Positions 1 to 28,213 of a DNA stretch of 38,065 nucleotides are shown here, one piece after another. The notes beneath the pieces are model-generated. The model searched no databases, was not told where the DNA came from, and saw nothing but the letters and a program-made list of their open reading frames with translations. The position numbers were made by a program, and so were the translations under genes. The DNA comes from an uncultured Lachnospiraceae bacterium (GTDB lineage: Bacteria > Bacillota > Clostridia > Lachnospirales > Lachnospiraceae): positions 1-38,065 of the forward strand of contig CALWMV010000009.1 of NCBI GenBank assembly GCA_944382125.1, in the 5' to 3' direction. Numbering within the stretch: position 1 is the stretch's first letter; each line of letters opens with the position of its first letter.

Positions 1-34
1 TGCATGCTGCAGGCTGTAATTCGTTCCTTATCAT
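1..34 (-). CDS. asrB: Start of next sulfite reductase gene, probably AsrB (partial)
   Basis: An ATG one base beyond the asrA stop opens a frame reading M-I-R-N-E-L-Q-P-A-A-C that runs off the window. Its Shine-Dalgarno sequence (AAAGGAG) is the last two sense codons of asrA, so the two genes are translationally coupled. In known asr operons the gene after asrA is asrB, the FAD/NAD(P)H-binding electron-transfer subunit. The eleven visible residues are too few to prove identity, so the name rests on position alone. Confidence 0.55.
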   Translation of the reverse strand, partial: MIRNELQPAAC

Positions 35-35
35 A

Positions 36-1076
36 TCAGCACTCCTTTCCCTGTTCCTTCATGATCTCTTCAACTGCTTTGGACATCTTGTTTACCGTAG
101 CAGAAAGAGCGATGAACTGAGGGCAATGATCCGTACATCTTCCGCAGCCTACGCACATCGGGCCCTCATGGAACCTTGCATCATATGCATGGAACTTGTG
201 GAGCACTTTATAGCGCATGCGGTCTCCGGCTGTGGGACGCATCTCTCTCTGGCCGGCCATCTGGTCAAATCCTGCTACCTGGCAGGAAGCGGAAACTCTG
301 CGTCTCTCACCGTTTTCAGCATTCTCGGTGTATACAACGTCCCTTGTGGTAAAGCAGGTACATGTCGAGCAGGCCATGGTGCAGGCTCCGCAGGAGATGC
401 ATCTTGCGTCATATTCCTTCCACATGGGATGCTTCTTAAGGGCGTTGAGCACCTCCTTGTCGGGGATGACGGGAGGAGTAACTGTGAGCTGATTCTTCTC
501 AACGAACTTCACCTTGAAGTCTTCCTTCTCGTACTCACTGAAGTAAGGCTCGAACTCAGCATCCTTGGACTCGATCTCAAGGCCGTTCTCTGAGAACTTG
601 AGACCGAATACATAATCATCTGTCTTGTTTGCGTTCATGGATACGCAGAAGCAGGTATCCGTGCCGCCCTCACACTCCATGAGAACGAACTTGGCCATGT
701 CATGACGTCTCTGATAATAAGCGTCTGCATGGGGGCCGTTGCCGAGGAATATCCTCTCCTGGATCTTCTGCGCATTGATGTCGCAGGGACGGCCGATGAT
801 GAGCATGGGCCTGAGGTTCTTCACCGCCTCATGGTAATCCTCATCATTGAAATAAAACAGTGTCTGATGAACGGGGTTCAGGACCTCCTTCATCGGATAA
901 GTAGACTTCTCAGCATACTCCACTTCGTCGAAGGAAGTTACCTTGTCGTACTTTATGACATCGGTGTCCGAATAGCGTCCCTGCTTGGGGAAGCGCTTCG
1001 GAGCGTAAATGTCATACTTCTCGCTCAGCTTTGCAAAGAGCGCATTTGACTGTTCTTTGTTCAGTCTGTATCCCAT
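36..1076 (-). CDS. asrA: Anaerobic sulfite reductase subunit A
   Basis: 346 residues, close to the length known for AsrA. This is the ferredoxin-like iron-sulfur subunit that passes electrons to the siroheme subunit AsrC in dissimilatory reduction of sulfite to sulfide in the cytoplasm. Two [4Fe-4S] motifs are visible in the C-terminal half: C226-x2-C229-x2-C232-x3-C236 (with extra cysteines at 239 and 241), and C308-x2-C311-x2-C314-x3-C318-P. The N-terminal half resembles the 4Fe-4S dicluster AsrA/hydrogenase-beta type domain. The ATG follows AGGAGG at good spacing. It is the last complete gene of the trxB-trxA-assT-asrA cluster, and the next gene begins 1 nt after its stop. The family assignment is firm. 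The physiological electron donor cannot be read from the sequence. Confidence 0.93.
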   Translation of the reverse strand: MGYRLNKEQSNALFAKLSEKYDIYAPKRFPKQGRYSDTDVIKYDKVTSFDEVEYAEKSTYPMKEVLNPVHQTLFYFNDEDYHEAVKNLRPMLIIGRPCDINAQKIQERIFLGNGPHADAYYQRRHDMAKFVLMECEGGTDTCFCVSMNANKTDDYVFGLKFSENGLEIESKDAEFEPYFSEYEKEDFKVKFVEKNQLTVTPPVIPDKEVLNALKKHPMWKEYDARCISCGACTMACSTCTCFTTRDVVYTENAENGERRRVSASCQVAGFDQMAGQREMRPTAGDRMRYKVLHKFHAYDARFHEGPMCVGCGRCTDHCPQFIALSATVNKMSKAVEEIMKEQGKEC

Positions 1077-1097
1077 TACGTATCCTCCTGAAAATGC

Positions 1098-1126
1098 GGC
1101 TTTGCGGGGATGTGGCCCGCAAAGCC
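1098..1126 (-). terminator. Intercistronic hairpin between assT and asrA
   Basis: Perfect 11-bp arms (GGCTTTGCGGG at 1098-1108, CCCGCAAAGCC at 1116-1126) with a 7-nt loop lie in the 60-bp gap. On the minus strand the stem is followed by GCATTTTC and then the asrA Shine-Dalgarno sequence. The weak U tract suggests partial termination or an mRNA processing/stability element rather than a full stop. Confidence 0.5.
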
Positions 1127-1136
1127 ATGAGTTTAT

Positions 1137-3008
1137 TTAGCAGGTAACCTGTACTCCGGTCTCATATTCCTTGTCATCTATGATAACACGAAGATCATAG
1201 GTGCCCTTGAGGCCTTCCTTGTTTACGAAGGTCCTGGTCTGTCGTGCATCAGGTGACATGAAGGTAGCTACGCACATAGCCTTGAGCTGCATAGCAGTTG
1301 TGGAGATGAAGTATCTGTGGATCTCCTCACCCTGGCAGAGAAGGAGCTGTACCATCTGGCCCTTCTCAAAGGTTGCGTTGAAGGTGAAGCGATCGGGCTC
1401 CTCGATGACCTCTCCCTCGTGCTTGTCGGGAAGGATCTCTCCTGTCTTCTCTGCGGGAACCTCGATATCAAACTCCTTGGTAACTCCCATCTCTCCGAGC
1501 TCCTCGCCCTTGCCAAGCTCAAGATTGATGCCGTCTGAGTAGAGCTTAAGCTTCTCTGCACGGTAGAAGTTGCCGTGTACCTTGAGCTCCAGCTGCTTAA
1601 CATCGTTGTCGATCTCAACGGTGGTAGCATAGAGATGTCCGCCCTGGTTACGGAATGCGGGAGGAAGTCCCTCGCAGGGAGTAACATTGTCGGGCATGTA
1701 TCCGATACCGCCGGAGTGAACAAGATAATGTCCCTCGTTGTAGTACTCTACGTTACAGATATAAGGGCTGAAGAACTCTGCTCCGCGGTCCTTGCCGTAC
1801 TCCCATACCTGCTCGATGGTCATATCCTTGGTATTGATGTGATAACGAACGCCTCTTGAGTAGTTGTCCTTTGCGGGAAGGAACTTCTCAGGATCCTTGC
1901 TTCCATAGTGATGGTTATCGAAGCACATTACGTCTCCGTTGGGAGTGATGACGCAGGCATGCTGCTCATACTGCCATCCGAAGTTAGTGCCTACGGGTGT
2001 GAAGAAATACTTCTTTACGAAGTCCTCGGGCCAGCCGTGAGGATCGCCGATGATCCAGTTCAGCTCACCGCTGTCGAAGTCGATGTTGATCATTGCATCG
2101 ATGTGGCGTCCGGAAAGGGTAACGCTGTTGGTGTTGGGATCATACCAGCATGCATTGTTGTGGAACCAGTCCTCATCTGACCAGCTGCCTGATCTTCCGC
2201 ACTCCTTCTCGGGAAGGATCTTCCTGTAGTCGTAGGTGCGGAGGACCTTACCGGTCTTCCTGTCAACGAGGGCAAGCTTATCCTCTACGGTATCGGACTG
2301 AAGATCATCAGTCAGAACGAGAAGGTTGCCGTCGGGAAGCTCGAACTCATCATGATGATATCCGCCGGGAAGTCTGTACTCCTTGTAGATCTTTCCTACG
2401 GGGCTGATCTCATAAACACCGCTCATGTAGTAGGGAAGCCTCAGTATCCTGTTTGTTCCCATGAGCAGGTTGCCGTTCTTTGCGCGCTTTACGTCGAATA
2501 CGCAGGGGATGGTCATATGGAACCTTGCATCTCCGTTGTAGTCATAAGCAACTGTCAGGTCCTCACCTGCAGGTGAAACCATGATGACATTGTCCTGAAG
2601 GTACTCAGGAGTGGTATGCATGGAGATGATGGGATCTGCGCCATCAAATACATCCGGGGTAGTGATGGTGATGGTATTCTTCTTGCCCCTGTACTCCTCC
2701 AGTACTACTTTGTTCTCATAGTTGGAATAAAGTCCAACGATGGGAAGTACGTGCTCCTTGGCCTTGGGGAAGGTATGATACATATCTCCCTGGGGGCCCT
2801 TCTTTCCGAGCACTCTTACGGAAACTGCCACCTCTTCCTCAGTAGTGAAGCAAACCACTGCTGAAAGAGGGTTGATCATGTAAAGGTTATACTTTACGAG
2901 AGGATTCTCGATCGTATAATTTCCCTCATGGAACTCCTTCAGCATTGCCTGCTCGGCTTCATACTGCTCGTCGATAAGGTAGCTCTTGAACGTATGCTTT
3001 ACTGCCAT
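1137..3008 (-). CDS. Aryl-sulfate sulfotransferase family protein, no signal peptide
   Basis: 623 residues of the ASST (AssT) beta-propeller family, which moves a sulfo group from an aryl sulfate to an acceptor through a sulfo-histidine without PAPS. Candidate active-site residues are His218/219 (GGYHHD), His283 (WFHNNA), Arg301 (SGRHID) and His350 (YEQHACVITPNGD, then CFDN). The His283-to-Arg301 spacing of 18 equals the His356-to-Arg374 spacing I recall for E. coli AssT, and His350 aligns with its catalytic His436. Unlike E. coli AssT there is no signal peptide: the N-terminus (MAVKHTFKSYLIDEQ) is charged, so the enzyme should be cytoplasmic. The start follows AAGGAG. The gene lies between trxA and asrA, 37 and 60 bp away, which links it to thioredoxin and sulfite reduction. 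The acceptor is unknown, and a non-transferase role is possible. Confidence 0.85.
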   Translation of the reverse strand: MAVKHTFKSYLIDEQYEAEQAMLKEFHEGNYTIENPLVKYNLYMINPLSAVVCFTTEEEVAVSVRVLGKKGPQGDMYHTFPKAKEHVLPIVGLYSNYENKVVLEEYRGKKNTITITTPDVFDGADPIISMHTTPEYLQDNVIMVSPAGEDLTVAYDYNGDARFHMTIPCVFDVKRAKNGNLLMGTNRILRLPYYMSGVYEISPVGKIYKEYRLPGGYHHDEFELPDGNLLVLTDDLQSDTVEDKLALVDRKTGKVLRTYDYRKILPEKECGRSGSWSDEDWFHNNACWYDPNTNSVTLSGRHIDAMINIDFDSGELNWIIGDPHGWPEDFVKKYFFTPVGTNFGWQYEQHACVITPNGDVMCFDNHHYGSKDPEKFLPAKDNYSRGVRYHINTKDMTIEQVWEYGKDRGAEFFSPYICNVEYYNEGHYLVHSGGIGYMPDNVTPCEGLPPAFRNQGGHLYATTVEIDNDVKQLELKVHGNFYRAEKLKLYSDGINLELGKGEELGEMGVTKEFDIEVPAEKTGEILPDKHEGEVIEEPDRFTFNATFEKGQMVQLLLCQGEEIHRYFISTTAMQLKAMCVATFMSPDARQTRTFVNKEGLKGTYDLRVIIDDKEYETGVQVTC

Positions 3009-3045
3009 GTTTCTCTTCTCCTTAAATTGTTTGATAAAAAAAGAT

Positions 3046-3357
3046 TTACAGGTTTTCCTCGATCATCTTTATAACGACGGGCTTCTGCTGAAGACCCCCG
3101 AGGCGTTTTACTTCCTCCCCGTCCTTAAAAAGCACCAGTGTGGGGTAGCCGGTAACACCCTTTTCAGCTACCAGTTCCTTGTTCTCGTCAAAGTTGACCT
3201 TGAGGATCTTTACCTTGTCGCCAAGCTGCTGATCCACGTCTCTCAGGACGAAGGCCATCATCTTGCAGGGGCCGCAGGTGCTTGAGTAGAAATCTACCAG
3301 CACAAGTCCGCTCATGTCCTCTGCCTTGTACTCTTCGGTATTAACTTCCTTGATCAT
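3046..3357 (-). CDS. trxA: Thioredoxin
   Basis: 103 residues, full thioredoxin length. The active site is C28-G-P-C31, and the cis-proline region reads GYPTLVLF near residue 75. The residue before the first cysteine is Thr (S-S-T-C-G-P-C) instead of the usual Trp, which may shift partner choice. The ATG follows AAGGAG with 6-nt spacing. It lies 41 bp after trxB and 37 bp before the AssT-like gene, so the pair looks dedicated to this sulfur cluster rather than being the cell's only thioredoxin system. This last point is inference. Confidence 0.93.
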   Translation of the reverse strand: MIKEVNTEEYKAEDMSGLVLVDFYSSTCGPCKMMAFVLRDVDQQLGDKVKILKVNFDENKELVAEKGVTGYPTLVLFKDGEEVKRLGGLQQKPVVIKMIEENL

Positions 3358-3398
3358 GTCATGCTCCTTTTTCTAAAACCTTTAACACCGCCTGCCGG

Positions 3399-4322
3399 TC
3401 AGTCAGCAAGCTTCTGTACGTAGTGTGATGCCTCCTCAGCGGCGATGGCTCCGTCGCTGCAGGCCGTGATGACCTGACGAAGGCCCTTGACGATGCAGTC
3501 TCCTGCTCCGTAGATACCGGGAACGGAGGTCTCCATCCTGTTGTTGACCGTGATGTATCCGCGGTCGAGTATGCCCAGATCCTCAGCAAACTCTGTGGTG
3601 GGCTCAAGTCCTATATACTCGAATACTCCGTCACACTTGACTGTATTCTCCTCGCCGGTCTTCGTGCTCTTGAAATGAACTCCGGTGAGCTTGTCCTCTC
3701 CGGTGAAATCAAGCACGTCCTGATATGCATATATCTTGACCTTGGGATTGGCACGGAGCTTGTCGCATACCATGGGATCTGCGGTAAGGTCGAACATGGT
3801 AACGATGGTAAGGCTGTTAACTATGCCTACCAGATAGAGGGACTCCTCAACTGCGGAATTGCCGCCTCCGATAACTACCACATCCTTGCCGCGGTACTGC
3901 TCTCCGTCGCAGATGGCGCACCAGCTGATGCCGTTGCCCTTCCACCTGTCCTCAGTGGGGATGCCCAGAGTACGATGTCTTGTACCTGTGGCTATGATGA
4001 CTGACTTTGTCTCATAGACCATGTCATCCTCTGCACAGTGTACCTTCTTTATCTTGCCGCAGTCCTCGATCCTTGTGACCGTGCGGTAATCAAAACCTAC
4101 TCCCAGAGCCTGGGTATGCTCGAACATCTGCATGGCCAGCTCGGCACCGTTTATGCTCTGGATACCGGTGTAGTTGTTGATCTCGTTGGTATTTATGATC
4201 TGTCCGCCGGGAGCCAGCTTGTCCAGCATCATGACCTTCATGTCCGCTCTTGCGGCATATACGGCTGCTGTCATGCCGGCAGGACCGGAGCCCACGATCA
4301 CGACATCATATATCTCGCTCAT
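3399..4322 (-). CDS. trxB: Thioredoxin reductase-like flavoprotein
   Basis: 307 residues from the ATG at 4322, chosen because GGAG lies 7 nt upstream. A longer frame to 4358 has no ribosome site. The FAD-binding GSGPAG is at 11-16, the redox pair C135-A-I-C138 is present, the second Rossmann motif GGGNSA is at 152-157, and the FAD-binding C-terminal YGAGD is at 271-275. The stretch after the second Rossmann fold reads VTMFDLTADPMVCDKL (174-189). Canonical NADPH enzymes have H-R-R-D-x-F-R-A there, so the arginines that hold the 2'-phosphate of NADPH are absent. The donor may be NADH, ferredoxin or something else. First gene of the trxB-trxA-assT-asrA cluster. Confidence 0.88.
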   Translation of the reverse strand: MSEIYDVVIVGSGPAGMTAAVYAARADMKVMMLDKLAPGGQIINTNEINNYTGIQSINGAELAMQMFEHTQALGVGFDYRTVTRIEDCGKIKKVHCAEDDMVYETKSVIIATGTRHRTLGIPTEDRWKGNGISWCAICDGEQYRGKDVVVIGGGNSAVEESLYLVGIVNSLTIVTMFDLTADPMVCDKLRANPKVKIYAYQDVLDFTGEDKLTGVHFKSTKTGEENTVKCDGVFEYIGLEPTTEFAEDLGILDRGYITVNNRMETSVPGIYGAGDCIVKGLRQVITACSDGAIAAEEASHYVQKLAD

Positions 4323-4338
4323 AATACATCTCCATTCC

Positions 4339-4356
4339 GCCGCCCACGATGGCGGC
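4339..4356 (-). promoter_or_regulatory. Leader hairpin just upstream of the trxB ribosome site
   Basis: GCCGCC (4339-4344) and GGCGGC (4351-4356) form a 6-bp GC stem with a 6-nt loop, ending about 5 nt before the GGAG of trxB. It could tune translation of the first gene of the operon. No known riboswitch is recognised. Confidence 0.35.
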
Positions 4357-4383
4357 AATTTATTATCCCTTTTTCAAGGTTTT

Positions 4384-4436
4384 ACGGGAAATCTGCCTAA
4401 TACTTATATTATGGCAAATTTCCCGTTTTTTTTAAA
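4384..4436 (-). promoter_or_regulatory. Candidate trxB operon promoter inside a large dyad
   Basis: Arms of 14 bp (4384-4397 and 4413-4426, 13 of 14 matching, core CGGGAAAT/ATTTCCCG) flank a 15-bp AT-rich centre. Read on the minus strand, TTTAAA (4431-4436), a 17-bp spacer and CATAAT (4408-4413) make a plausible sigma-A promoter, with the dyad covering the spacer, the -10 and the start region. On the plus strand the same stem is followed by eight T, so it also has the form of an intrinsic terminator facing antisense transcription. Operator and antisense terminator are both open. Confidence 0.45.
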
Positions 4437-4475
4437 TAGCCTTCGTTAAATTTTGTTTAAATTAGACGAATTTTA

Positions 4476-5936
4476 TCAGCCCATGAAGAGGTTCATCATA
4501 GGTATGCCGATAACCAGCACCAGCGCAAGCTCAAGCAGTATGATCATTCCGCAGTACTTATAGATATCCTTTGCCTCAAGCCACTCCTTGTTTCCGAAGA
4601 GCATTGCTGCGAAGGGTGAAGCTGCAGGGGTCTCCATCGCGCAGGAAAGCACGAAGAAGATAGAGAGTGATACGATAGGTGCTGCATTGATGCCCGTAGT
4701 CGTGCAGTAGGAAAGTATTACGGGCTGCAGGATCATACCGATAACCAGTGAGTTGCAGACATTGGTCAGTACCATAAGCACGATCATCAGGAATATGATG
4801 AAGGTAACGGTGCTCATGCCTGTAAACAGAGGTGAAAGAAGCTGGTTGAGGAAAGGAGTGATTCCTGTATTCTCAGCTGTCAGCACGCTTCCGATAAGGA
4901 TGGCTGAGGTGCAGAGGAAGAAGGAGCTCCATGCCACATTGGTCTTCATTGTTCCCTGGATATCCACAACAGGCTTTCCTGCTATCTGGATGGCTGCAAG
5001 CACTGCCACGAAGGTTGCTGCCATACCCGTTGAGTTAGCCTTGAGGAAGGCCATGCCGGGCAGTGTCGGGAACCAGCTGGGAAGCAGCATGCAGAGCACG
5101 TATACCACGTAAGCGATGGCAAGTATCTTCTGATGTATGGACATCGGAGGAAGAGGGTTCTTCTTAAGATCGTCGATCTTAAGGCTCTTAAGCTTGCTTA
5201 CATCGGGATGTATAACGTACTTAAGGAAGATGATGGTTATCGCAAGGAACAGGATACCCATGATGAGGGTACATGCAAAGTACATACCATCGTTAAGCTC
5301 TACCGTGTTGTTGGAAATGGTGCGGTAGTTGGTAAGCAGTGCCAGGGGATTTCCTGCATAGGGGGGCACGGGGAATCCGAGCATGGAACCGAATACTACC
5401 ATGATGACCGCAAGCTTGGGATAGGTCTCCTTGTTGGTATATCCGAGCTGCTGGAAAATGTCATACATAACCGGCCAGAACAGGAATATCGGGGCGAAGG
5501 GTCCTCCAAGGAATACTGCCATCAGAAGGCATCCCAGGGAGATGACGAAGGTAAGGAGCCAGGGCTTTCCCTCGCTGACCTTACGGGTCAGGAACCAGCG
5601 TCCGATATAAGGTGTGATCTTCTCACGTACCAGAGCGCCTGAGAATACCATCATGAACAGCATCTGCACTACGGTAGGGTTACCGAAGGCTTCCTTGATA
5701 ACGCCGCCCATGTTGGAATAGCTGCTGAAGCCTATCATGAAGATAGAAAAAATACTTGCCCAGGTAGGGTCAACTGTGGTCCAGAGATAAAGGGTACCGA
5801 TGAAGATACCAAGGACCTCCATACCAGTCTCTGTTATCGGTGCCATAGGAGGGAACATCCTTATGATGAACATAATGGCAATACCGATGATGGAATTGAT
5901 CATGGTAGCGGAAATGCCGCCTTTACTTTTAGACAT
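4476..5936 (-). CDS. DASS/SLC13-type anion permease
   Basis: 486 residues, strongly hydrophobic, with roughly 11-12 membrane segments. The fold and motifs fit the divalent anion:Na+ symporter / ion transporter superfamily: paired re-entrant regions near GFPVPPYAGNPLALLTN (about 190-206) and TNVCNSLVIGM (about 390-400), and a conserved GGPFAPIF. The family imports sulfate, dicarboxylates or citrate; the substrate here is not readable. It sits immediately upstream of trxB (about 150 bp) and diverges from the Crp/Fnr regulator, so it may bring in the sulfated or sulfonated substrate of this cluster. Its GAGG lies 13 nt before the ATG, longer than usual, so the exact start is somewhat uncertain. 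Confidence 0.8.
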   Translation of the reverse strand: MSKSKGGISATMINSIIGIAIMFIIRMFPPMAPITETGMEVLGIFIGTLYLWTTVDPTWASIFSIFMIGFSSYSNMGGVIKEAFGNPTVVQMLFMMVFSGALVREKITPYIGRWFLTRKVSEGKPWLLTFVISLGCLLMAVFLGGPFAPIFLFWPVMYDIFQQLGYTNKETYPKLAVIMVVFGSMLGFPVPPYAGNPLALLTNYRTISNNTVELNDGMYFACTLIMGILFLAITIIFLKYVIHPDVSKLKSLKIDDLKKNPLPPMSIHQKILAIAYVVYVLCMLLPSWFPTLPGMAFLKANSTGMAATFVAVLAAIQIAGKPVVDIQGTMKTNVAWSSFFLCTSAILIGSVLTAENTGITPFLNQLLSPLFTGMSTVTFIIFLMIVLMVLTNVCNSLVIGMILQPVILSYCTTTGINAAPIVSLSIFFVLSCAMETPAASPFAAMLFGNKEWLEAKDIYKYCGMIILLELALVLVIGIPMMNLFMG

Positions 5937-6011
5937 AGCTTTTTACATACCTCATTTCTTGATTTTGCAGGGATCAAAAATGCAGGCGTCAGGGACTGCC
6001 CCGGTCCCATT

Positions 6012-6029
6012 TCGTTACATTTTTAACGA
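6012..6029. promoter_or_regulatory. Candidate Crp/Fnr-type operator (TCGTTA-N6-TAACGA)
   Basis: Perfect 6-bp arms separated by 6 bp, the geometry used by Crp/Fnr-family dimers (TGTGA-N6-TCACA in Crp). It lies between the divergent permease and Crp/Fnr genes, about 75 bp before the permease ATG. Binding by the neighbouring regulator is inferred. Confidence 0.45.
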
Positions 6030-6091
6030 TCCCGGGTTTTATTTTACCTACATCTATTGACATTATTTTAACGGGGCTTTCGTTCCTTTAA

Positions 6092-6131
6092 AATAACTTA
6101 GGTTAACTTATCTCAGTTTTTCTGCTATACT
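6092..6131 (+). promoter_or_regulatory. Promoter of the Crp/Fnr gene with overlapping dyad
   Basis: TTAACT (6103-6108), a 17-bp spacer and TATACT (6126-6131) preceded by TGC (extended -10) form a good plus-strand promoter. A dyad TAAC-TTAG-GTTA (6094-6105) overlaps the -35, which fits autoregulation by the encoded regulator. The 10-mer TAGGTTAACT inside it recurs at 7689-7698. Confidence 0.55.
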
Positions 6132-6173
6132 ATAGGGCAGATAAAGAAATCCAGATCTATCGGGGGATTTTTC

Positions 6174-6851
6174 ATGCAGATAAAAGATCTATACAGATAC
6201 GGGCAGAAGGTGACCGTAAGGCGGTGTGAGATCATAACCGATGCCGTGGCGGGCTCTGATGAGGCCAGCGTATATATACTGGATAAGGGGCTTGCGGCCC
6301 TTACCTCCACCAACAAAAAGGGAGATGAATTCATCTACCTCTTTTTCCGCGGACCCAGATGCATGGGCTTCGCCCCTGCAGTCACCCAGATGCTGAACCT
6401 CCGGCCCTTCCCCATGTCGATGCATCAGCCCACCATGTTCACCATACTGGCAAAGAGCGACTGCAGCCTTTACCGCATAAGCAGGGCAAATTTCCAGGCC
6501 CTCATGGAGGATCCGGATTTTTCAAAGCTGCTGATAAATATCATCTTTTCGACCTATATGGACGTGCTCTACCATTACTATACCAGCAGGGAGAGCTCCG
6601 CTGCCGGCAGGCTCTGCGGCCTTCTGCTTGAGCAGAGCGAAAAGGATGCTGACGGAGAGCTGGTTCTGGACTCCCTTTTTACCTACGATGAGCTCAGCCA
6701 TTATCTCGGAGTGCACAATATAACCGTGGCCAGGATCATGAGCGCCCTGAAGAAGGAGGGCGTCATAAGAAAGCTCGGAAGGAAGACCCTGATCTCCGAC
6801 ATGACAAAGCTCAGATCCATCATAGATGAGGATCTGATCCTGGAGTACTGA
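6174..6851 (+). CDS. Crp/Fnr-family transcription regulator
   Basis: 225 residues, with an N-terminal cyclic-nucleotide-binding-like beta domain (about 10-120), a dimer helix (about 125-150) and a C-terminal winged helix-turn-helix (about 160-215). The HTH reads FTYDELSHYLGVHNITVAR. In Crp the recognition helix has R-E-T-V-G-R; here the aligned residues are N-I-T-V-A-R, so the glutamate that reads the TGTGA/TTGAT half-site is missing and a different operator is expected. There is no N-terminal FNR-type cysteine cluster. The start follows GGGGGA at 6 nt. It is the only clear plus-strand gene here and is divergent from the permease and trx-assT-asr cluster, which it probably controls. Effector unknown. 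Confidence 0.85.
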   Translation: MQIKDLYRYGQKVTVRRCEIITDAVAGSDEASVYILDKGLAALTSTNKKGDEFIYLFFRGPRCMGFAPAVTQMLNLRPFPMSMHQPTMFTILAKSDCSLYRISRANFQALMEDPDFSKLLINIIFSTYMDVLYHYYTSRESSAAGRLCGLLLEQSEKDADGELVLDSLFTYDELSHYLGVHNITVARIMSALKKEGVIRKLGRKTLISDMTKLRSIIDEDLILEY

Positions 6852-6903
6852 TGTTTCTCCATAAGGCCTTCACTGACACCGGATGATCTCTTAAGAAAGA
6901 AGC

Positions 6904-6939
6904 AAAAGAGACAGCTGCTTTTTCGCAGCTGTCTCTTTT
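6904..6939. terminator. Bidirectional intrinsic terminator
   Basis: Perfect 15-bp arms (6904-6918 and 6925-6939) with a 6-nt loop have A-rich and T-rich ends. It sits between the convergent Crp/Fnr gene and the phosphoribosyltransferase-like gene and can serve both. Confidence 0.85.
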
Positions 6940-6963
6940 AAAAATCCATCTTAAAATCTGTAA

Positions 6964-7668
6964 TCAGACCTTCCTGAGACCGTAGCGCGTGATTATGCCG
7001 TCGATGGGCACCTTCTTTGCGCAGAGGTCGCAGTTCTTATCCTCGTCAAGGGTGAAATCAGGGAGATCACCCTTTGAGAATACGGCATTGACCGGATATC
7101 CGTCCAGGTTGTCTACCATGGCGAAGATAACGGAGATGCCTATGATGCGTCCGCCGAACTCGGTAACCGTGGAAAGTACCCTTCCAAGGGTCTTGCCCTG
7201 CATGGCTGTAGCCAGAAGTATGAGGATGTTCTTGCCCTTGAGCATCTTCTGGATGTCATCGGTAACTATCATGGCTCCGGAATCATCAAAGTCAGGAGTG
7301 ATGATGTTGTAGGTACCGAACTCATTGTTGGTGGAAACTCCGTATCCGGAAAGCTTGTCAGCAACGTAAGCACCCAGAGCCTCACAGCCGTCCATGCAGA
7401 TGATGGTGTCTATGGGAGCAGCGGTAGCCAGGTCAGAGGACATGCCTGCCATGTACTCCATGCCGAGGCGTGAGCCCTTGGTCTTAACTCTGTGAACATA
7501 CCTGTCGGCCATGGCCTCTGCGGTCATCTTGGCCTTTGCAAGCTGTACCTTCATCGGAGTCAGATCTATGTAATAATTGGAATGGAATCTGTCCGAAGCA
7601 AAGTGTCCCTTGAATACCTCAAGCTTGAGGTCAGGATTTGATGTGCACGGGATCAAAAGTTTTTCCAT
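6964..7668 (-). CDS. Orotate phosphoribosyltransferase-like protein, degenerate PRPP loop
   Basis: 234 residues with a type I phosphoribosyltransferase-like layout. An N-terminal hood region is followed by a segment IDTIICMDGCEALGAYVAD (about 86-104) and by ILILLATAMQGKTLGRV (about 149-165) where the PRPP loop normally reads D-D-x-x-T-T-G-G-T. The two acidic residues of that loop are absent. The C-terminus has a C-D-L-C pair in KNCDLCAKKVPIDGI. A Shine-Dalgarno GGAGGG precedes the ATG. No pyrimidine genes are nearby; it stands alone between two terminators. True OPRTase activity is doubtful, and a nucleotide-sensing or salvage role is equally possible. Confidence 0.6.
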   Translation of the reverse strand: MEKLLIPCTSNPDLKLEVFKGHFASDRFHSNYYIDLTPMKVQLAKAKMTAEAMADRYVHRVKTKGSRLGMEYMAGMSSDLATAAPIDTIICMDGCEALGAYVADKLSGYGVSTNNEFGTYNIITPDFDDSGAMIVTDDIQKMLKGKNILILLATAMQGKTLGRVLSTVTEFGGRIIGISVIFAMVDNLDGYPVNAVFSKGDLPDFTLDEDKNCDLCAKKVPIDGIITRYGLRKV

Positions 7669-7771
7669 AAGTTAATACCCTCCTTCTATAGGTTAACTAC
7701 AGCATACCCCAATTAAAGCCCGGAGTAAATAATCCATGTTATCTTAGGTCCCCTTTGAACGGTCTTAACAG

Positions 7772-7795
7772 AAAAAACACAGGGCTTACGCCCTG
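7772..7795 (-). terminator. Terminator after the CBS-pair gene
   Basis: On the minus strand CAGGGC, GTAA and GCCCTG form a tight stem-loop followed by TGTTTTTT. It begins 10 bp beyond the CBS gene stop. Confidence 0.8.
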
Positions 7796-7804
7796 CCAGA
7801 AAGG

Positions 7805-8242
7805 CTATGCGAGCTGATACTCAGTATCGGCCTTCACAGCCTCCTCTATCTTTTCCGAAAAATACTTGATTATGTCCTTTCTGGTGACTATGCCTATAAA
7901 CTTGCCGTCATCATCCATGACAGGGACAAAGTTCTGGTTCATGGCCACCTTTATAAGATCCTCCATGGAGGATCGGACTGAGACCTGGGCATAATCCCTT
8001 CTGCGGTTTATGTCTGTGATGGGTACGTTTTCCGCTTCCTTGAGATCCAGATCATACTTGTTCTTGATGCCCCACAGCAGGTCTCCCTCAGTAAGGACCC
8101 CCACATAGGATCCTTCGTCATCAAGTATGGGTATGGAAGAATACTTATGGTACTCCATCTTTTCCATGGCCTGTCTCAGGGTATCACTGGTCTCTATATA
8201 TGCACAGTCACACTTGGGTGTGAGGTAAAACAAAATATTCAT
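7805..8242 (-). CDS. CBS-domain pair protein
   Basis: 145 residues consisting almost only of two CBS motifs: residues about 10-60 (SSIPILDDEGSYVGVLTEGD) and about 75-135 (FVPVMDDDGKFIGIVTRKD). Stand-alone CBS pairs bind adenine nucleotides or S-adenosylmethionine and act as energy or metabolite sensors, or bind DNA or partner enzymes. The gene is monocistronic, with its own terminator and a structured leader. The partner is unknown. Confidence 0.85.
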   Translation of the reverse strand: MNILFYLTPKCDCAYIETSDTLRQAMEKMEYHKYSSIPILDDEGSYVGVLTEGDLLWGIKNKYDLDLKEAENVPITDINRRRDYAQVSVRSSMEDLIKVAMNQNFVPVMDDDGKFIGIVTRKDIIKYFSEKIEEAVKADTEYQLA

Positions 8243-8250
8243 AACAAAGC

Positions 8251-8302
8251 CCCATTCAAAATACTTTCTACTGTAGTATTTTAGACATGCTTTTTGAATG
8301 GG
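8251..8302 (-). promoter_or_regulatory. Structured leader upstream of the CBS-pair gene
   Basis: Perfect 11-bp arms (CCCATTCAAAA at 8251-8261, TTTTGAATGGG at 8292-8302) enclose a second stem (AAAATACT 8258-8265 with AGTATTTT 8275-8282). The two stems share the AAAA and are partly alternative. On the mRNA the 3' arm ends in GAAUGGGG, the only Shine-Dalgarno-like sequence before the ATG at 8242, so the fold would hide it. No known riboswitch class is recognised. Confidence 0.45.
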
Positions 8303-8351
8303 ATGTGAACGCTTTGATAAAAAAACAGCGATCTTTCTAAAAACTTTATAA

Positions 8352-8373
8352 ACTTCAGGGCTCAGCCCTAAGT
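8352..8373 (-). terminator. Weak terminator after the cvfB-like gene
   Basis: On the minus strand ACTTAGGGC, TGA and GCCCTGAAGT form a short bulged hairpin 8 bp past the stop, followed after TTATAAAG by TTTTT. Confidence 0.45.
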
Positions 8374-8380
8374 CCGCAGA

Positions 8381-9571
8381 TCAGAGGAGCCTTACCCTGT
8401 CATTTTCCCTGTCTATCTCTACCTTTCTTTCTCTGTAGAGATGTCCGAGGGCTCTCTTGAACTGATTCTTGCTCATGCCGTAGATATCCTCTATCATGGC
8501 CGCATCAGCCCGGTCTGCATAAGGCAGCTCTCCCCCGTTTCTCTTTATCTCCTCCAGCACCTTCTCCGCATCCTCATTGATGGAGATATAGGATTTTTCC
8601 CGGAGGCTCAGGTCCAGCTTACCATCGGGCCTCACCTTCGTTATCCTGACGTTCACCCTGTCGCCATAGCTCAGCTTTCTGTATATCTCCGAGGGAGGGA
8701 TCAGGCCGAAGTATTTATTGTCCACGGCCACGAATATGCCAAGCTTCTGATTTATCTCGTAGACAAAGGCCTCTGCCCGGTCTCCCTCCTTATAACCCTT
8801 TGCAGGGCTCAGGTATTTGTAGACCCTCATGGTGGCAGCAGTCCTTCCGCTCTTATCCTTATATATGTGTACCAGGACCTCCTGACCGACCCTGGGAGAC
8901 TCTATCTGTTCAGAGAAGGGGAGCAGCACATCCTTCGGCACCCCGTTATCCAGGAATACTCCTATCCTGGTCACATCCGTCACCCTGAGTACTCCAGTCT
9001 CTCCCACTGAAAGGAAGGGCTTTCTCATGGTGGCTGTGACCCTGTCTCCCTTATCCAGGAAGAGTCTGACTGTTACCAGGCTGCCTTCCTCCGGTCTTTC
9101 CGTCTGTTCTGAAAAAGGCAGCAGTACCTTTTCTCCCTCTCTTAGCTCAAGAAAACAGCCTATCTCGGTATTCTGAAGGACCTTAAGCTTCATGGGCTCA
9201 GAGAAATCCCCGCTGAAGCTCTCCGTTCTGCGGTACTTTTCCCCTGATCTTCCTCCGAAGGCCTGCTCCCTTCCCGGTCTTCCGAAGGTCCCGGATCCGC
9301 TCCTCCTTCCGGCGTTATCTGAGGTCCTGCCGGATCTTCTCTGAGGCGCAGACTTTCCGGAATGTCTCACTATTGAAAGAGAGGAATTGCCTCCCCTTCT
9401 TCCCTTGCCCCTGGGAGCTCCGGACTTTTCATCTCCGTCTTTGATCCCGGACTCATTTTTTCTTTCAAAGGGATAGAGCCTTCTCTCCTGCTTATGCTCA
9501 AAGGGATAGCTCCTTCTTTCACGGCCCTCTCCTTCCGGCCTCATGCTTGTATTGTCTGTATTTCCGTTCAT
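8381..9571 (-). CDS. cvfB: CvfB-like S1-domain RNA-binding protein with long N-terminal extension
   Basis: 396 residues from the ATG at 9571, 2 nt past the hflX stop. A longer frame would need a GTG inside hflX, so I prefer 9571. From about residue 125 on there are three S1-like OB modules (starting near MKLKVLQNTEIGCFLE, GVLRVTDVTRIGVFLD and AEAFVYEINQKLGIFV), then a C-terminal winged helix (AAMIEDIYGMSKNQFKRAL). This is the CvfB/YitL layout, whose known members are about 280-300 residues and affect virulence gene expression and RNA handling. The extra first ~120 residues are Arg/Gly/Ser-rich and probably disordered. They include two tandem copies of R-R-x-Y-P-F-E-x-K-x-E. Confidence 0.8.
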   Translation of the reverse strand: MNGNTDNTSMRPEGEGRERRSYPFEHKQERRLYPFERKNESGIKDGDEKSGAPRGKGRRGGNSSLSIVRHSGKSAPQRRSGRTSDNAGRRSGSGTFGRPGREQAFGGRSGEKYRRTESFSGDFSEPMKLKVLQNTEIGCFLELREGEKVLLPFSEQTERPEEGSLVTVRLFLDKGDRVTATMRKPFLSVGETGVLRVTDVTRIGVFLDNGVPKDVLLPFSEQIESPRVGQEVLVHIYKDKSGRTAATMRVYKYLSPAKGYKEGDRAEAFVYEINQKLGIFVAVDNKYFGLIPPSEIYRKLSYGDRVNVRITKVRPDGKLDLSLREKSYISINEDAEKVLEEIKRNGGELPYADRADAAMIEDIYGMSKNQFKRALGHLYRERKVEIDRENDRVRLL

Positions 9572-9573
9572 AT

Positions 9574-10857
9574 TCAAAGCCTTATATACTCCTTGATGTC
9601 CTTTATGTATCTCCTTCCGATAAGACACAAAAGCTCTATGCCCTTATCGGTATATTCCTTCTCAAGTATCTCACCCTTTGCGGATATCAGAAATTCCTTT
9701 CCCGCATCCTGATAGGGTATCAGAAGGGACAGCCGCAGCGTGTCCTCCTCTAACCTTGAGGATATCATATCGCAAAGCTCTTCTATGCCTGTTCCTTCCC
9801 TGGCAGACATATATATCCTGTCACCATTTATGATCGGGAGCTCCTCCAGGGGATAAAGCCGGTCAGCCTTGTTCATGACATATATCACTGGTATATCCGA
9901 GGCCTCAAGCTCCCTGAGCGTGGCTCCCGTGACCTCCATGTGGCGAAGATGCTCCTCATCCGAACAGTCCACCACCTCCAGTATCAGATCCGAACCGGCT
10001 ATCTCCGACAGAGTGGACCTGAAGGCCTTTATAAGATCATGGGGCAGATCGTCTATGAAGCCCACCGTGTCGGAAAGGAGGAAATCCCGATGCATCCTGG
10101 GGCTTATGCGCCTTGTGGCCGTATCCAGGGTCACAAAAAGCATATCCTTTTCCTCTACCCTCTTGTCCTCCTCGGAGCCGAAATACTCCACCATACGGTT
10201 AAGGAGGGTAGATTTGCCCGCATTGGTGTAGCCTGCCAGGGATACCAGAGGAAGTCCTGATCCCTCGCGGCGTTTTCTCTGGGTCTTCCTTCCGCTTTCC
10301 AGCTGCTCCAGGCGCTTTCTGAGCTCCGACATCCTCTTTTCTATCACTCTTCGGTCCAGCTCGATCTGCTTTTCGCCGGAGCCCTTATTGGACATGGAGC
10401 CTCCGGTGCCTCCCTGCCTCGACAGGTTCTTTCTGAGTCCCCTGAGCCTCGGGAGCATATAGCCCAGTCTGGCATACTCCACCTGCATCTTGGCCTCTGC
10501 ACTCCTGGCCCTCTCCCCGAAGATCTCCAATATGAGATCGGTCTTATCCAGCACCCTCACCTCCAGCTGGTCCGTAAGGTTGCTAAGCTGGGAGGGGCTC
10601 AGGGAATTGAGGAATATGACCGCCTCTGCCTCCGTCTCCGAGACAAGCTCCCTTATCTCCGCAAGCTTTCCGGAACCGATATAGGTGGCATTGTCAAAGC
10701 TGTCCAGTTTCTGAGTGACTATATCAGCGCAGCTGTAGCCGCAGGCTTCTGCAAGGCCCCGAAGTTCCTCCATCCTGCTTTCAAAATCCCTGTCCCTGCC
10801 CCGTGCCACTCCGCACAGCAGGGCTGTTTTTACTTCTTCTATATAATTATCCGTCAT
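9574..10857 (-). CDS. hflX: Ribosome-associated GTPase HflX
   Basis: 427 residues. The N-terminal HflX domain includes the linker NLSRQGGTGGSMSNKGSGE (about 144-162), which is typical of the family. A coiled-coil leads into the GTPase: Walker A GYTNAGKST (209-217), switch II DTVGFIDDLPHDL, and NKAD for guanine recognition. HflX binds stalled or hibernating 50S/70S ribosomes and splits them. The ATG directly abuts AAGGG with no spacer, and a stop lies two codons upstream, so this start is forced but its ribosome site is poor. It lies between argS and the cvfB-like gene. Confidence 0.93.
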   Translation of the reverse strand: MTDNYIEEVKTALLCGVARGRDRDFESRMEELRGLAEACGYSCADIVTQKLDSFDNATYIGSGKLAEIRELVSETEAEAVIFLNSLSPSQLSNLTDQLEVRVLDKTDLILEIFGERARSAEAKMQVEYARLGYMLPRLRGLRKNLSRQGGTGGSMSNKGSGEKQIELDRRVIEKRMSELRKRLEQLESGRKTQRKRREGSGLPLVSLAGYTNAGKSTLLNRMVEYFGSEEDKRVEEKDMLFVTLDTATRRISPRMHRDFLLSDTVGFIDDLPHDLIKAFRSTLSEIAGSDLILEVVDCSDEEHLRHMEVTGATLRELEASDIPVIYVMNKADRLYPLEELPIINGDRIYMSAREGTGIEELCDMISSRLEEDTLRLSLLIPYQDAGKEFLISAKGEILEKEYTDKGIELLCLIGRRYIKDIKEYIRL

Positions 10858-10874
10858 CCCTTAAAGAAAGATAA

Positions 10875-10903
10875 CTCTGCGTCCCTTCAGGCGGGATGCA
10901 GAG
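10875..10903 (-). terminator. Hairpin between argS and hflX
   Basis: CTCTGC-x-TCCC pairs with GGGA-x-GCAGAG (10875-10885 with 10893-10903), 10 of 11 pairs, followed on the minus strand by TTATCTTTCTTT. It could stop part of the argS transcript before hflX. Confidence 0.6.
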
Positions 10904-10920
10904 CATCATAATAACACTTA

Positions 10921-12693
10921 TCACATCTTATCCGGTGCCTTGAAGCCCAGCATGTCTATGCAGCGGAGCAGAAGCTCCCTGGTCAGGGAAAGCAGTGCTA
11001 TATAGCTCTGTCTCTTTGCCTCATCGGGCTCGGAAAGCACCTTTACATCATGATAGAAGGAGTTGAATTCATCAGATATCTCATAGATGTACTGGCATAT
11101 CTTATGGGGGGCGGTCTCCTCCCAGGCCGAGGCTATGACCTCGCTGTATCTGGAGATGCAGAGGGCCAGCTTCTTTCCTGCCGGGGACGCCTCCTCGGCC
11201 GCTGCATATATGCTGCTTTCCTTTGCAGGCTCTGCTGCGGCAGTCTCCCTGTACTTCTCAAGTATGCTGCCTATCCTTACTATCGTATAAAGTATATAGG
11301 GCCCGGTATTGCCCTCGAAGCTCGTAAAGCGATCTATATCAAAGATATAGTCCTTTGAGGCCTGATTTGAAAGATCGCCGTACTTAAGGGCTGCAAGGCC
11401 CACTGTCTTTGCGATCTCCCTTGCCTCCGCATCGGGGATCTCCTCAGCGCTTCTGGTCTCCCTTATCTTCTCAAAGACCTTTTCATTTATCTCGCCTATG
11501 AGGTCTGAAAGCCTCATGACTCCGCCCTCTCTGGTCTTGAAGGGCTTTCCGTCCTTTCCGTTCATGGTGCCGAAGCCAAGGAAGCTGAGCTTTTCCTCAG
11601 GCCTTACTATGCCTGCCTTCCTTGCCACGCGGAAAAAGCTGAGATAATGAAGGCTCTGGCGCTGATCCGCTATATAGATGTATGAATCCGGATGATACAG
11701 AAGCTCCCTTTCCACCATGGTGGCCAGGTCGGTGGTCGCATAAAGGGATGCTCCGTCCGACTTCCTTATAAGGCAGGGAGGATACTCCTTGGTATCTCCC
11801 TCCTCGGCTATATCCACCACCAGAGCTCCCTGGGATTCGTGGGCTATGCCCCTTTCCTCCATATCCCTGAGCATGTCCGGGATATACTTCTGGGCATCGG
11901 ATTCACCCTTCCAGAGCTCAAAGCTGACATTGAGGGCATCATAGTTGCGTCTCAGGTCCGCAAGGGAAAGCTCCATGATATGCTCCCAGACCTTCCTGCA
12001 CTCCGGATCTCCGTCCTGGAGCCTGGCAGTGGCCGCAAGGGCGCGCTTTCTGAAATCTTCCGCATCCGGAGTGAGCTCACCGCTCTCATCCTTTGCCTTT
12101 GATCTTGCAGAAGCTGCAGGATATATCTCCTCCAGATCAGAAAGGGAGAAGTCACTCATCCCTCTGTCCCTGAGCTCCTCTATGATAAGTCCCATCTGAA
12201 GGCCCCAGTCCCCGAGATGCACGTCTCCAATCATCTCATGGCCCATGGCCCTTCCTATGCGCTTCACGGACTCGCCTATTATCGCCGAACGCAGATGGCC
12301 TATATGGAGGGGCTTAGCCACATTGGCTCCGCCGTAATCCACTATGACCGTCTCCTTCCTTTCGGGAAGAGGCAGTCCCAGTCTCTCATCTGCCGCCATG
12401 TCAGAAAGCACGGAGGAAACAAAGTCCTTATCCAGGTCCATGTTTATAAAGCCGGGGCGTACTGCCTCGACTTTACTGAACTGCGGATATGCTTTTAGTT
12501 TTTCCGTGATCTCTGCCGCTATATCAAAGGGAGCCCTGCGGGCCGCCTTTGCAAGAGCCATGGCACCGTTGCACTGATATTCGCAGAGGTCCGGCCTGTT
12601 GCTCAGGCCGACCTTGCCGTAGGCAGGATCATATCCCGCCTCTGAAAATGCCCTGCGGCACAAATCATTAAGTATATCTGCGATCTTTTCCAT
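10921..12693 (-). CDS. argS: Arginyl-tRNA synthetase
   Basis: 590 residues, the usual class Ia length. The N-terminal Arg-N domain (to about 85) is followed by the catalytic core with HIGH at 130-133 (AKPLHIGHLRSA). The KMSKS-like position reads KPFKTREGG, as is common for ArgRS, which often lacks a canonical KMSKS. The C-terminal DALR anticodon domain ends the protein. The ATG overlaps the efp stop by one base (TAATG), so translation is coupled. There is no T-box leader, because the gene is internal to an operon. Confidence 0.97.
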   Translation of the reverse strand: MEKIADILNDLCRRAFSEAGYDPAYGKVGLSNRPDLCEYQCNGAMALAKAARRAPFDIAAEITEKLKAYPQFSKVEAVRPGFINMDLDKDFVSSVLSDMAADERLGLPLPERKETVIVDYGGANVAKPLHIGHLRSAIIGESVKRIGRAMGHEMIGDVHLGDWGLQMGLIIEELRDRGMSDFSLSDLEEIYPAASARSKAKDESGELTPDAEDFRKRALAATARLQDGDPECRKVWEHIMELSLADLRRNYDALNVSFELWKGESDAQKYIPDMLRDMEERGIAHESQGALVVDIAEEGDTKEYPPCLIRKSDGASLYATTDLATMVERELLYHPDSYIYIADQRQSLHYLSFFRVARKAGIVRPEEKLSFLGFGTMNGKDGKPFKTREGGVMRLSDLIGEINEKVFEKIRETRSAEEIPDAEAREIAKTVGLAALKYGDLSNQASKDYIFDIDRFTSFEGNTGPYILYTIVRIGSILEKYRETAAAEPAKESSIYAAAEEASPAGKKLALCISRYSEVIASAWEETAPHKICQYIYEISDEFNSFYHDVKVLSEPDEAKRQSYIALLSLTRELLLRCIDMLGFKAPDKM

Positions 12694-13250
12694 TATACCC
12701 TCGACAGATACTCTCCCGTACGTGTATCGATCTTGATCTTGTCACCGATGTTGACGAAGAGGGGAACGCTCACCTGAGCTCCGGTCTCCACGATGGCGGG
12801 CTTGGATGCGCCTGTAGCAGTATCACCCTTGAAGCCGGGCTCTGTCTCGGTGACCTCGAGCTCCACGAACATGGGCGGCTCAACTGAAAATACGGAGCCG
12901 TTGTATGAGCAGATCTTGCAGGTATCGTTTTCCTTTACGAACTTCATGGCATCTCCGCAGAGATCCTCTGCAAGAGACATCTGATCATAGGTCTCCATAT
13001 TCATGAAGTTGTACTGATCTCCATCCTTGTAAAGGTACTGCATATCCACCCTGTCGATACGGGCTGAGGGGAACTTCTCGGTAGGCCTGAAGGAAGTCTC
13101 GATAACTCCTCCGTTGATGACGTTCCTGAGCTTGGTCCTTACGAATGCAGCTCCCTTTCCGGGCTTTACGTGCTGGAACTCAACGACCTGCATTACCTGT
13201 CCGTCGATCTCGACGGTAACACCATTTCTGAAATCTCCTGCTGAAACCAT
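12693..13250 (-). CDS. efp: Translation elongation factor P
   Basis: 185 residues with the KOW-like N-terminal domain and two OB domains. EF-P binds between the ribosomal P and E sites and relieves stalling at polyproline. The tip loop reads [12 protein letters not shown] with the modifiable lysine at 32. No lysine-modifying genes of the EpmAB type are seen in the window. The C-terminal signature with [17 protein letters not shown] is present. GGAGG precedes the ATG at 13250. The gene overlaps argS by one base. Confidence 0.97.
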
Positions 13251-13337
13251 ATAGATCCTCCAAATCCTTATTGAACTCTTTATATATTGCTTTTATACCG
13301 CGCTTTTCCTTATACTGCGCAAAAAATCATTATAATC

Positions 13338-13844
13338 TTAGCGGAAAATGCCCTTTTTGTAAAGATAGAGTATGGGCTTTTCCAGATACCTTTTAAATCT
13401 TATCCTGGGGATATCCGAACTTTTATCGATGGGTTTTACCAGCACGCTCTCTATACCCGCCCTGTTGGCTCCCCAGATATCCGTGAAGAGCTGATCACCG
13501 AAGAAGATGACCTCCTTCTCTGAAAGTCCCAGCTTCGCACAGAGCTTCCTGTAGCCCTCAGGACTGGGCTTTCCCGCAAGGAACACATAATCCAGGCCTC
13601 CGCAGGCCTCTGCAAAGGCTTTGACCCTGGGCTCCCTGTTATTTGAAACTATACCGAGGCGGAGGCCCTTTGCTGAAAGGGCCGCAAGGAAGCCCCTGCT
13701 CCTCTCATCCGCCGGTGCATCGTGGGGCACCAGGGTATTGTCTATATCAAAAATGGCTCCTTTAAGCCCCTTCTTCATCTCCCCGTCAAAATCAAAGCCG
13801 TAAACGCTTTCTATATATCTTGCCGGGCACATGGGAGGCCGCAT
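13338..13844 (-). CDS. yqeG: YqeG-family HAD phosphatase
   Basis: 168 residues from the ATG at 13844, which overlaps the nrdR stop (TGATG); a GTG one codon earlier is also open. HAD motif I is DIDNTL, motif II is in GIVSNN, the motif III lysine is in AGKPSPEGY, and motif IV is GDQLFTDIWGANR. This is the HAD-IIIA YqeG/YqeG-like family, which in Bacillus lies beside the ribosome-assembly GTPase gene yqeH. The substrate is not known; phosphatidylglycerophosphate phosphatase activity is known for related eukaryotic proteins. It lies between nrdR and efp. Confidence 0.88.
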   Translation of the reverse strand: MRPPMCPARYIESVYGFDFDGEMKKGLKGAIFDIDNTLVPHDAPADERSRGFLAALSAKGLRLGIVSNNREPRVKAFAEACGGLDYVFLAGKPSPEGYRKLCAKLGLSEKEVIFFGDQLFTDIWGANRAGIESVLVKPIDKSSDIPRIRFKRYLEKPILYLYKKGIFR

Positions 13845-28141: not shown

Positions 28142-28213
28142 TGCTCCCAAGCGGAATCGAACCGCTATCTACGGCTCCGGAGGCCATCGTTCTATCCATT
28201 ATACTATGAGAGC
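28142..28213 (-). tRNA. tRNA-Arg (anticodon CCG)
   Basis: A 72-nt cloverleaf. The acceptor stem GCTCTCA/TGGGAGC includes one G-U pair and the discriminator is A. The anticodon stem ATGGC/GCCGT holds loop CTCCGGA, giving anticodon CCG (codon CGG). The T arm is AGCGG-TTCGATT-CCGCT. The D stem (GTAT/GAAC) is weak, with one mismatch. The 3' CCA is not encoded. It lies alone between the metallophosphoesterase gene and a pseudogene. Confidence 0.93.

Follow-up and report, generated by a model that had tools for sequence, protein, structure and literature searches.

A conserved operon joining a leaderless arylsulfate sulfotransferase to a dedicated thioredoxin and to sulfite reduction in Lachnospiraceae

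Why would a leaderless arylsulfate sulfotransferase (AssT) be encoded between a thioredoxin pair and an anaerobic sulfite reductase? The question is raised by positions 1 to 5,936 of contig CALWMV010000009.1 of an uncultured Lachnospiraceae bacterium (GenBank assembly GCA_944382125.1). We analyzed this contig at its whole length of 38,065 nucleotides, hereafter the window; it is contig C9 in the numbering of a metagenome-assembled genome (MAG) of 1.56 Mb that is 90% complete. An earlier reading of the letters alone (the original prediction) had proposed a cytoplasmic pathway from sulfate esters to sulfide at this locus. Our analysis confirms the operon and shows it to be conserved and specific. 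Judged by its gene content, we consider it rather likely to encode a cytoplasmic reductive desulfation module, in which an imported ester would be converted by way of AssT, the thioredoxin pair TrxAB and sulfite to sulfide.

Gene order and the sulfotransferase

The five genes lie on the minus strand in the order permease, trxB, trxA, assT and asrA, and all five were confirmed by their coordinates and by Pfam and NCBIfam matches, as the original prediction had described them. The permease gene and trxB are separated by 150 bp, and the gaps from trxB on, predicted at 37–60 bp, measure 41 bp (trxB-trxA), 37 bp (trxA-assT) and 60 bp (assT-asrA). The permease (4476..5936) is an anion transporter of CitMHS/DASS type that matches Pfam CitMHS with 48 bits (cut-off 31.9) and scores 52.2 bits against the DASS model TIGR00785, below the cut-off of 198.6. 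TrxB (3399..4322), a thioredoxin reductase-like flavoprotein (PF07992, 155.9 bits), reaches 320.7 bits against TIGR01292, below the cut-off of 343.45; its start was taken as the ATG at 4322, where the list of open reading frames has a TTG at 4358. TrxA (3046..3357) matches PF00085 with 86.3 bits. AssT (1137..3008) is of the Firmicutes type that is independent of 3'-phosphoadenosine-5'-phosphosulfate (PAPS), with 333.2 bits for PF05935 and 65.7 bits for PF17425 (cut-offs 24.2), and AsrA, subunit A of anaerobic sulfite reductase (36..1076), scores 392.4 bits against TIGR02910 (cut-off 323.15).

The first codons of asrB occupy positions 1..34 of the minus strand, and the gene continues, followed by asrC, on contig C62 of the same MAG: bases 1–77 of the window are the end of the C62 stretch (L002), an exact overlap of 77 bp. 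That stretch carries the remainder of asrB, asrC and a partial BioY-like gene (L002 3-290). AsrB scores 330.3 bits against TIGR02911 (cut-off 288.6), and AsrC is 98% identical to the AsrC of the relative L034, on which the AsrC model was scored (366 bits, cut-off 324.1). AsrABC is thus present in the MAG, AsrA and AsrB by scores over their cut-offs and AsrC through its identity to the L034 protein. In the nearest relatives, L034 and L058, AssT is 95–96% identical to that of the window. L034 has the complete unit, followed by a BioY-family gene (12977-13591) and by siroheme genes, namely a hemC-cobA-hemD-like fusion and a gene for a protein with the cysG N-terminal domain. Siroheme is the cofactor of such sulfite reductases. 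A BioY-family gene in this place, after asrC and ahead of the siroheme genes, is shared by the nearest relatives and is an odd partner for sulfite reduction. An assembly accident was rejected, as the identical order is found in Hungatella hathewayi (L037), H. effluvii (L035) and Diplocloster agilis (L055).

Within AssT we located the catalytic site. The residues His252, His356, Asn358, Arg374 and His436 of E. coli AssT (listed in section 6 of PMC13426309) correspond, by counting along the alignment, to H219, H283, N285, R301 and H350, and all five are invariant in the 69 of the 95 listed AssTs that were aligned. PDB entry 4p04, by its title a His436Asn mutant, has an asparagine at the position of H350, and His350 is predicted to be the sulfo-accepting residue. 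At the position of Thr501 the window protein has I417, adjoining C418, a difference that was not taken as family-defining alone. The AlphaFold model has a predicted local distance difference test (pLDDT) score of 91.6; its best nine PDB matches are chains of bacterial AssTs (E 6.4e-25 or lower), with template modelling (TM) scores of about 0.58 on the query and 0.64 on the target. By domains, sulfo-binding residues and fold the protein therefore belongs to the AssT family. Its description as leaderless also holds by hydropathy: within the first 45 residues, the largest 15-residue mean was 0.49 for the 48 thioredoxin-linked AssTs, and 2.13 by the same measure for one lipoprotein control. As a hydrophobic N-terminal stretch is lacking, AssT is most likely cytoplasmic. 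A homologue from H. effluvii, not matched to one particular H. effluvii copy, is active in vitro according to excerpts of PMC11576661.

Conservation of the locus and its thioredoxin

A scan of one genome per species yielded 73 loci with an AssT relative. In 47 of these, trxB and trxA both stand beside assT (trxB accompanies trxA in every case), and this repetition indicates that the arrangement is more than chance. asrABC is found in 20 of the 73 loci, all of which have trxA as well; a related permease occurs together with trxA in 39, and asrC with a siroheme gene in 15. The co-occurrence in relatives, whose lack would by its own terms have refuted the original prediction, is strongly conserved. 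In 50 loci the best AssT shares 55% identity or more with the L034 protein, and 43 of these have trxA. Six of the remaining seven (L061, L062, L063, L064, L067, L072) hold additional AssT copies beside a thioredoxin-linked locus of the same assembly (as judged from shared accession prefixes), five of them flanked by a permease and a Crp-type gene, as if several AssTs fed one thioredoxin pair. The exception is L068, which has neither trxA nor the status of an additional copy. Pairwise distances of AssT correlate with those of TrxA (r 0.93, 48 loci) and of AsrA (r 0.85, 21 loci), calculated for loci with both genes near full length; this shows inheritance as a unit and is not proof of interaction.

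Distant AssT-like genes are arranged otherwise in a few places. They stand in tandem in L102 (Robinsoniella peoriensis, 5973-13986), L104 and L105, in stretches that contain no match to TrxA or Asr, and around 168134-171496 of G542:C2 (L119, L127) two AssT-like matches fall in one open frame of 1664 codons, possibly a fused double AssT.

The usual active site of thioredoxin is WCGPC. All 30 AssT-linked TrxA proteins in our alignment (30 of 48) have TCGPC instead, and T27, C28, C31, L89, Q90 and K92 are invariant among them, the last three within a mostly GLQQKP stretch (LQxK near the C-terminus of the window protein). Against the general thioredoxin model TIGR01068 the window TrxA scores 91.6 bits, under the cut-off of 96.8, so that it matches neither the equivalog nor the usual site. 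A profile of the clade, which contains some of the very sequences that it scores, finds one copy at AssT in each of six genomes (173–186 bits), whereas other thioredoxins reach at most 87 bits; WCGPC or WCMPC is present in all eight inspected of the 14 other thioredoxin matches. In a tree of 28 AssT-linked thioredoxins (26 of the 48, with L134 and L135), eight others and two with a CHVC site, the 28 fall on one side of a branch with modest support (Shimodaira-Hasegawa-like approximate likelihood-ratio test, SH-aLRT, 80). The AssT-linked TrxA is a distinct, dedicated clade.

The same thioredoxin type stands beside AssT in two distant genomes (G454 and G260), in one of them in a different gene order; the order at L113 is permease-assT-trxB-trxA. 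The neighbours of AssT in L084 (Desulfosporosinus) and L109 (G230) include a TrxB-like gene and a thioredoxin of a different kind, whose site is CHVC; a TrxB-like gene (about 382–404 aa) follows AssT in six of eight Desulfosporosinus loci. As both the TCGPC and the CHVC type adjoin AssT, its pairing with thioredoxin is seen more than once, with different proteins. By eye, an MFS-type transporter adjoins an anion permease in L084 (3655-7771), with a LysR-type regulator upstream.

Partners in sulfite handling

Does AssT occur with sulfite reduction more often than expected? In a family sample of 200 genomes, six carried a close AssT and 17 only distant AssT homologues. AsrA was found over its cut-off on the same contig in all six, against 41 of the 200 overall (Fisher p 5e-5, or 3e-4 without the window's own genome). 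Among the 17 with only distant homologues AsrA was at background level (4 of 17, p 0.76), and the idea that any AssT homologue accompanies Asr was rejected on this count. Seven genomes without a close AssT (G021, G050, G103, G148, G149, G154, G159) carry AsrA copies of 371–425 bits that deviate from the model as far as the AssT-linked ones do and may serve another sulfite source.

AsrC was searched in 28 genomes and exceeded its cut-off in 21, including 20 of the 24 with a thioredoxin-linked AssT; 18 of those 20 have no asr in the stretch fetched around the locus. The search covered 22 genomes from the 27 thioredoxin-linked loci without asr, all but L047, L048, L050, L060 and L073. The four thioredoxin-linked genomes without AsrC over the cut-off (G216, G218, G219, G220) all carry a PF03601/YeiH gene, and G219 and G220 have an NIR_SIR-type match of 108–111 bits. 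According to the abstract of PMC12880088, the resistance of Salmonella to sulfite is driven mainly by YeiH. The YeiH gene stands directly after AssT in L078 and L081; that of L082 is found 6.4 kb downstream, beyond a small NIR_SIR gene. As PF03601 is also present in 15 of 26 other genomes examined, its presence alone is uninformative and the argument rests on the adjacency to AssT, which was inspected by hand in few loci. G227 and G015 gave identical coordinates in this PF03601 search and probably represent a single assembly. The genome of L082 is one of those without AsrC over the cut-off, and close to its AssT the genes for YeiH, the small NIR_SIR protein and a CoA-disulfide reductase/rhodanese-like flavoprotein stand together at 8136-12100 (minus strand).

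In a phylum sample of 398 genomes the AssT profile matched 15. An NIR_SIR domain was found in all 12 AssT-positive genomes tested (all but G542, G269 and G380). DsrA exceeded its cut-off in 11 of the 11 distant AssT genomes tested (window's genome excluded), a count that would have to be weighed against the phylum-wide base rate of Dsr. From the linkage to Asr, the AssT-adjacent YeiH where AsrC is missing, and DsrA in the distant genomes, it follows that AssT accompanies sulfite handling through differing partners: Asr, Dsr or YeiH.

The MAG gave no match for ATP sulfurylase (PF01747), for the reductase of PAPS or adenosine-5'-phosphosulfate (APS; PF01507) or for sulfatase (PF00884), an absence that is not proof in a MAG of this completeness; its only NIR_SIR match is asrC on C62. 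On the same ground and with the same limit, sulfate activation as the source feeding Asr was rejected for this organism. PF01747, a mark of dissimilatory sulfate respiration, was likewise matched in none of the six AssT genomes; five of the six have sulfatases and two have PF01507 matches. Together with the dedicated TrxA clade and with YeiH or Dsr where Asr is missing, the lack of PF01747 and PF01507 matches in the MAG indicates that sulfite is probably the product of the operon. This part of the proposed ester-to-sulfide pathway is supported, but the evidence does not stretch to its designation as respiration. AsrABC is soluble, and no membrane electron carrier was seen among the identified conserved neighbours (no dedicated search for membrane electron transport was made); for these reasons we prefer to speak of an electron sink unless energy conservation can be demonstrated.

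Outside the operon, the window has a gene for a Crp/Fnr-family regulator (6174..6851, plus strand; HTH_Crp_2 and cNMP_binding) divergent from the permease gene, and a related gene is present in 29 of the 73 loci. A 234-aa protein encoded at 6964-7668 (minus strand) has no Pfam or NCBIfam match at E 0.001 and is phosphoribosyltransferase-like by eye; relatives directly follow the second AssT in L059, L060, L065, L066, L069 and L071, or lie elsewhere near AssT or Crp-type genes. The sole tRNA detected in the window is a tRNA-Arg (ccg) at 28142-28213 (minus strand).

Proposed chemistry and alternative explanations

In the chemistry that we propose, the permease, a probable sulfate ester importer, would bring in a small sulfate ester, and AssT would take its sulfo group onto His350 and free the alcohol or phenol. 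C28 of TrxA would then attack the sulfo-histidine to give TrxA-S-SO3-, and C31 would displace sulfite, leaving TrxA as a disulfide to be re-reduced by TrxB. The net reaction would be R-OSO3- + NAD(P)H -> ROH + sulfite. AsrABC would reduce the sulfite to sulfide, so that an ester could accept eight electrons in all, two of them from thioredoxin and six from AsrABC; where a lineage lacks AsrABC, DsrAB could take over the sulfite or YeiH could handle it. We infer the sulfo transfer to a thiol, the direct role of TrxA, the nature of the substrate and the formation of sulfide from the gene content and its conservation. That the natural acceptor of AssT is the thiol of its own TrxA, which would make the pair the first thioredoxin-dependent organosulfate reductase, without need for ATP, is a tentative reading to which we give slightly less than even odds, though more than to any alternative below. 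With similar caution, the same reading may extend to many Lachnospiraceae and to Erysipelotrichaceae/Coprobacillaceae-type bacteria and, with other partners, to relatives of Desulfosporosinus.

There is a precedent for the thioredoxin half of this chemistry. In PAPS/APS reductase a thiol attacks the sulfo donor, and thioredoxin then releases sulfite. The operon would put this half onto a sulfotransferase. The differences are that the proteins are unrelated and that the donor here would be an organic ester acting through a sulfo-histidine, without activation by ATP; as PF01507 is matched neither in AssT nor in the MAG, AssT may work like PAPS/APS reductase but is not a member of it.

Several observations weigh against the proposal. 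Shared descent, for which we did not correct, inflates the locus counts, the Fisher p values and the distance correlations. Seven Peptococcaceae loci (L087, L091, L092, L094, L096, L101, L103) have no TrxA match, and in the phylum sample trxA lies within about 1.5 kb of AssT in the best loci of only three of 14 other genomes, an undercount in that the single TrxA query missed the CHVC thioredoxin of L084. In the family sample the window's genus is represented by one further genome (G117), which lacks both AssT and AsrA, and in 18 of the 24 thioredoxin-linked genomes asr is distant from AssT or beyond the fetched flank. Finally, close AssTs (H. effluvii) accept phenols, alcohols, amines and N-acetylglucosamine (GlcNAc) in vitro, as stated in portions of PMC11576661 and PMC13426309, and a thiol is not required for turnover. 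This range fits a promiscuous sulfo-histidine, yet leaves ordinary transsulfation open.

Among the alternatives, the one that survives best is a thiol relay, in which the sulfo group would pass to a small thiol or to a cysteine of AssT such as C418, and TrxAB would then release sulfite; the net pathway would be the same with TrxA acting indirectly. After four of 108 AssT matches under 500 aa had been dropped, C418 was counted in 95 and C579 in all 96 of the thioredoxin-linked and close AssTs, and C362 in 48 of 48 thioredoxin-linked and 34 of 48 other close ones; eight distant AssTs lack both C418 and C579, with a serine and a gap at these positions. This conservation speaks for a relay, but C418 and C579 are kept also in AssTs not beside trxA, and a specialized TrxA would better suit a direct protein partner, so that we regard the relay as unlikely.

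A little less likely still is ordinary transsulfation between phenols and alcohols, with TrxAB and AsrABC as neighbours that serve unrelated redox or sulfite defence. The hydroxyl and amine acceptors of close homologues just cited agree with it, but it has to contend with the recurrent linkage of AssT to Asr, Dsr, YeiH and two thioredoxin types, including the association in the family sample. We think it improbable that the role of TrxAB is confined to holding AssT or AsrABC in the reduced state, opposite to the action of DsbL/DsbI on E. coli AssT. The E. coli enzyme does need a partner redox pair for its disulfide (excerpts of PMC13426309), but a cytoplasmic protein of an anaerobe would not be expected to need a private thioredoxin pair, and the sulfite partners would be left unexplained. 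Least probable of all, if by little, is a donor other than an O-sulfate ester, such as an S-sulfo or N-sulfo compound with the same downstream steps: the permease is of a general anion-transporter type, but five residues of the aryl-sulfate site known from E. coli are conserved.

How does the TrxA-acceptor reading compare with described systems? The cluster II AssTs of D. hafniense and H. effluvii share family, fold and catalytic histidine with the window protein; their donor in vitro is an aryl sulfate (excerpts of PMC11576661 and PMC13426309), and the natural acceptor of most of these enzymes is unidentified according to part of a 2026 review (PMC13426309). The words 'thioredoxin' and 'sulfite' are absent from the main text of both papers, as is 'thiol' from that of PMC11576661. 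In E. coli, AssT likewise stands beside a thiol-redox pair, but the DsbL/DsbI system is periplasmic and disulfide-forming (sections of PMC13426309), whereas the pair described here is cytoplasmic and, by gene type, reducing. Isethionate sulfite-lyase pathways also lead from an organosulfur compound through sulfite to sulfide, but there a glycyl radical enzyme cleaves the C-S bond of a sulfonate (abstract of PMC8473560), whereas the reaction proposed here is the reductive cleavage of a sulfate ester. In the open-licence PMC literature, preprints not included, we found no paper joining AssT, thioredoxin and sulfite reductase, although a description elsewhere is possible. The main texts of a 2026 gut sulfide review (PMC13232883) and a 2022 survey of gut sulfur genes (PMC9016944) contain neither 'sulfotransferase' nor 'sulfate ester', and that of the 2012 D. 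hafniense genome paper neither 'sulfotransferase' nor 'arylsulf'. Estrogen sulfate desulfation by Peptococcus niger, a table entry in a review (PMC3508456, seen in excerpt), is a lead only.

The reading offers a testable answer to the open question of what PAPS-independent arylsulfate sulfotransferases do in the cell and which acceptor they use; if true, it would explain why the natural acceptors of cluster II AssTs stayed unfound. Through the operon, sulfated steroids, phenols or polyphenols might also give rise to hydrogen sulfide in the gut: dietary and host sulfate esters would be turned into sulfite and sulfide without expenditure of ATP, and the desulfation of conjugates in the gut could be reductive, yielding sulfite, besides hydrolytic, yielding sulfate.

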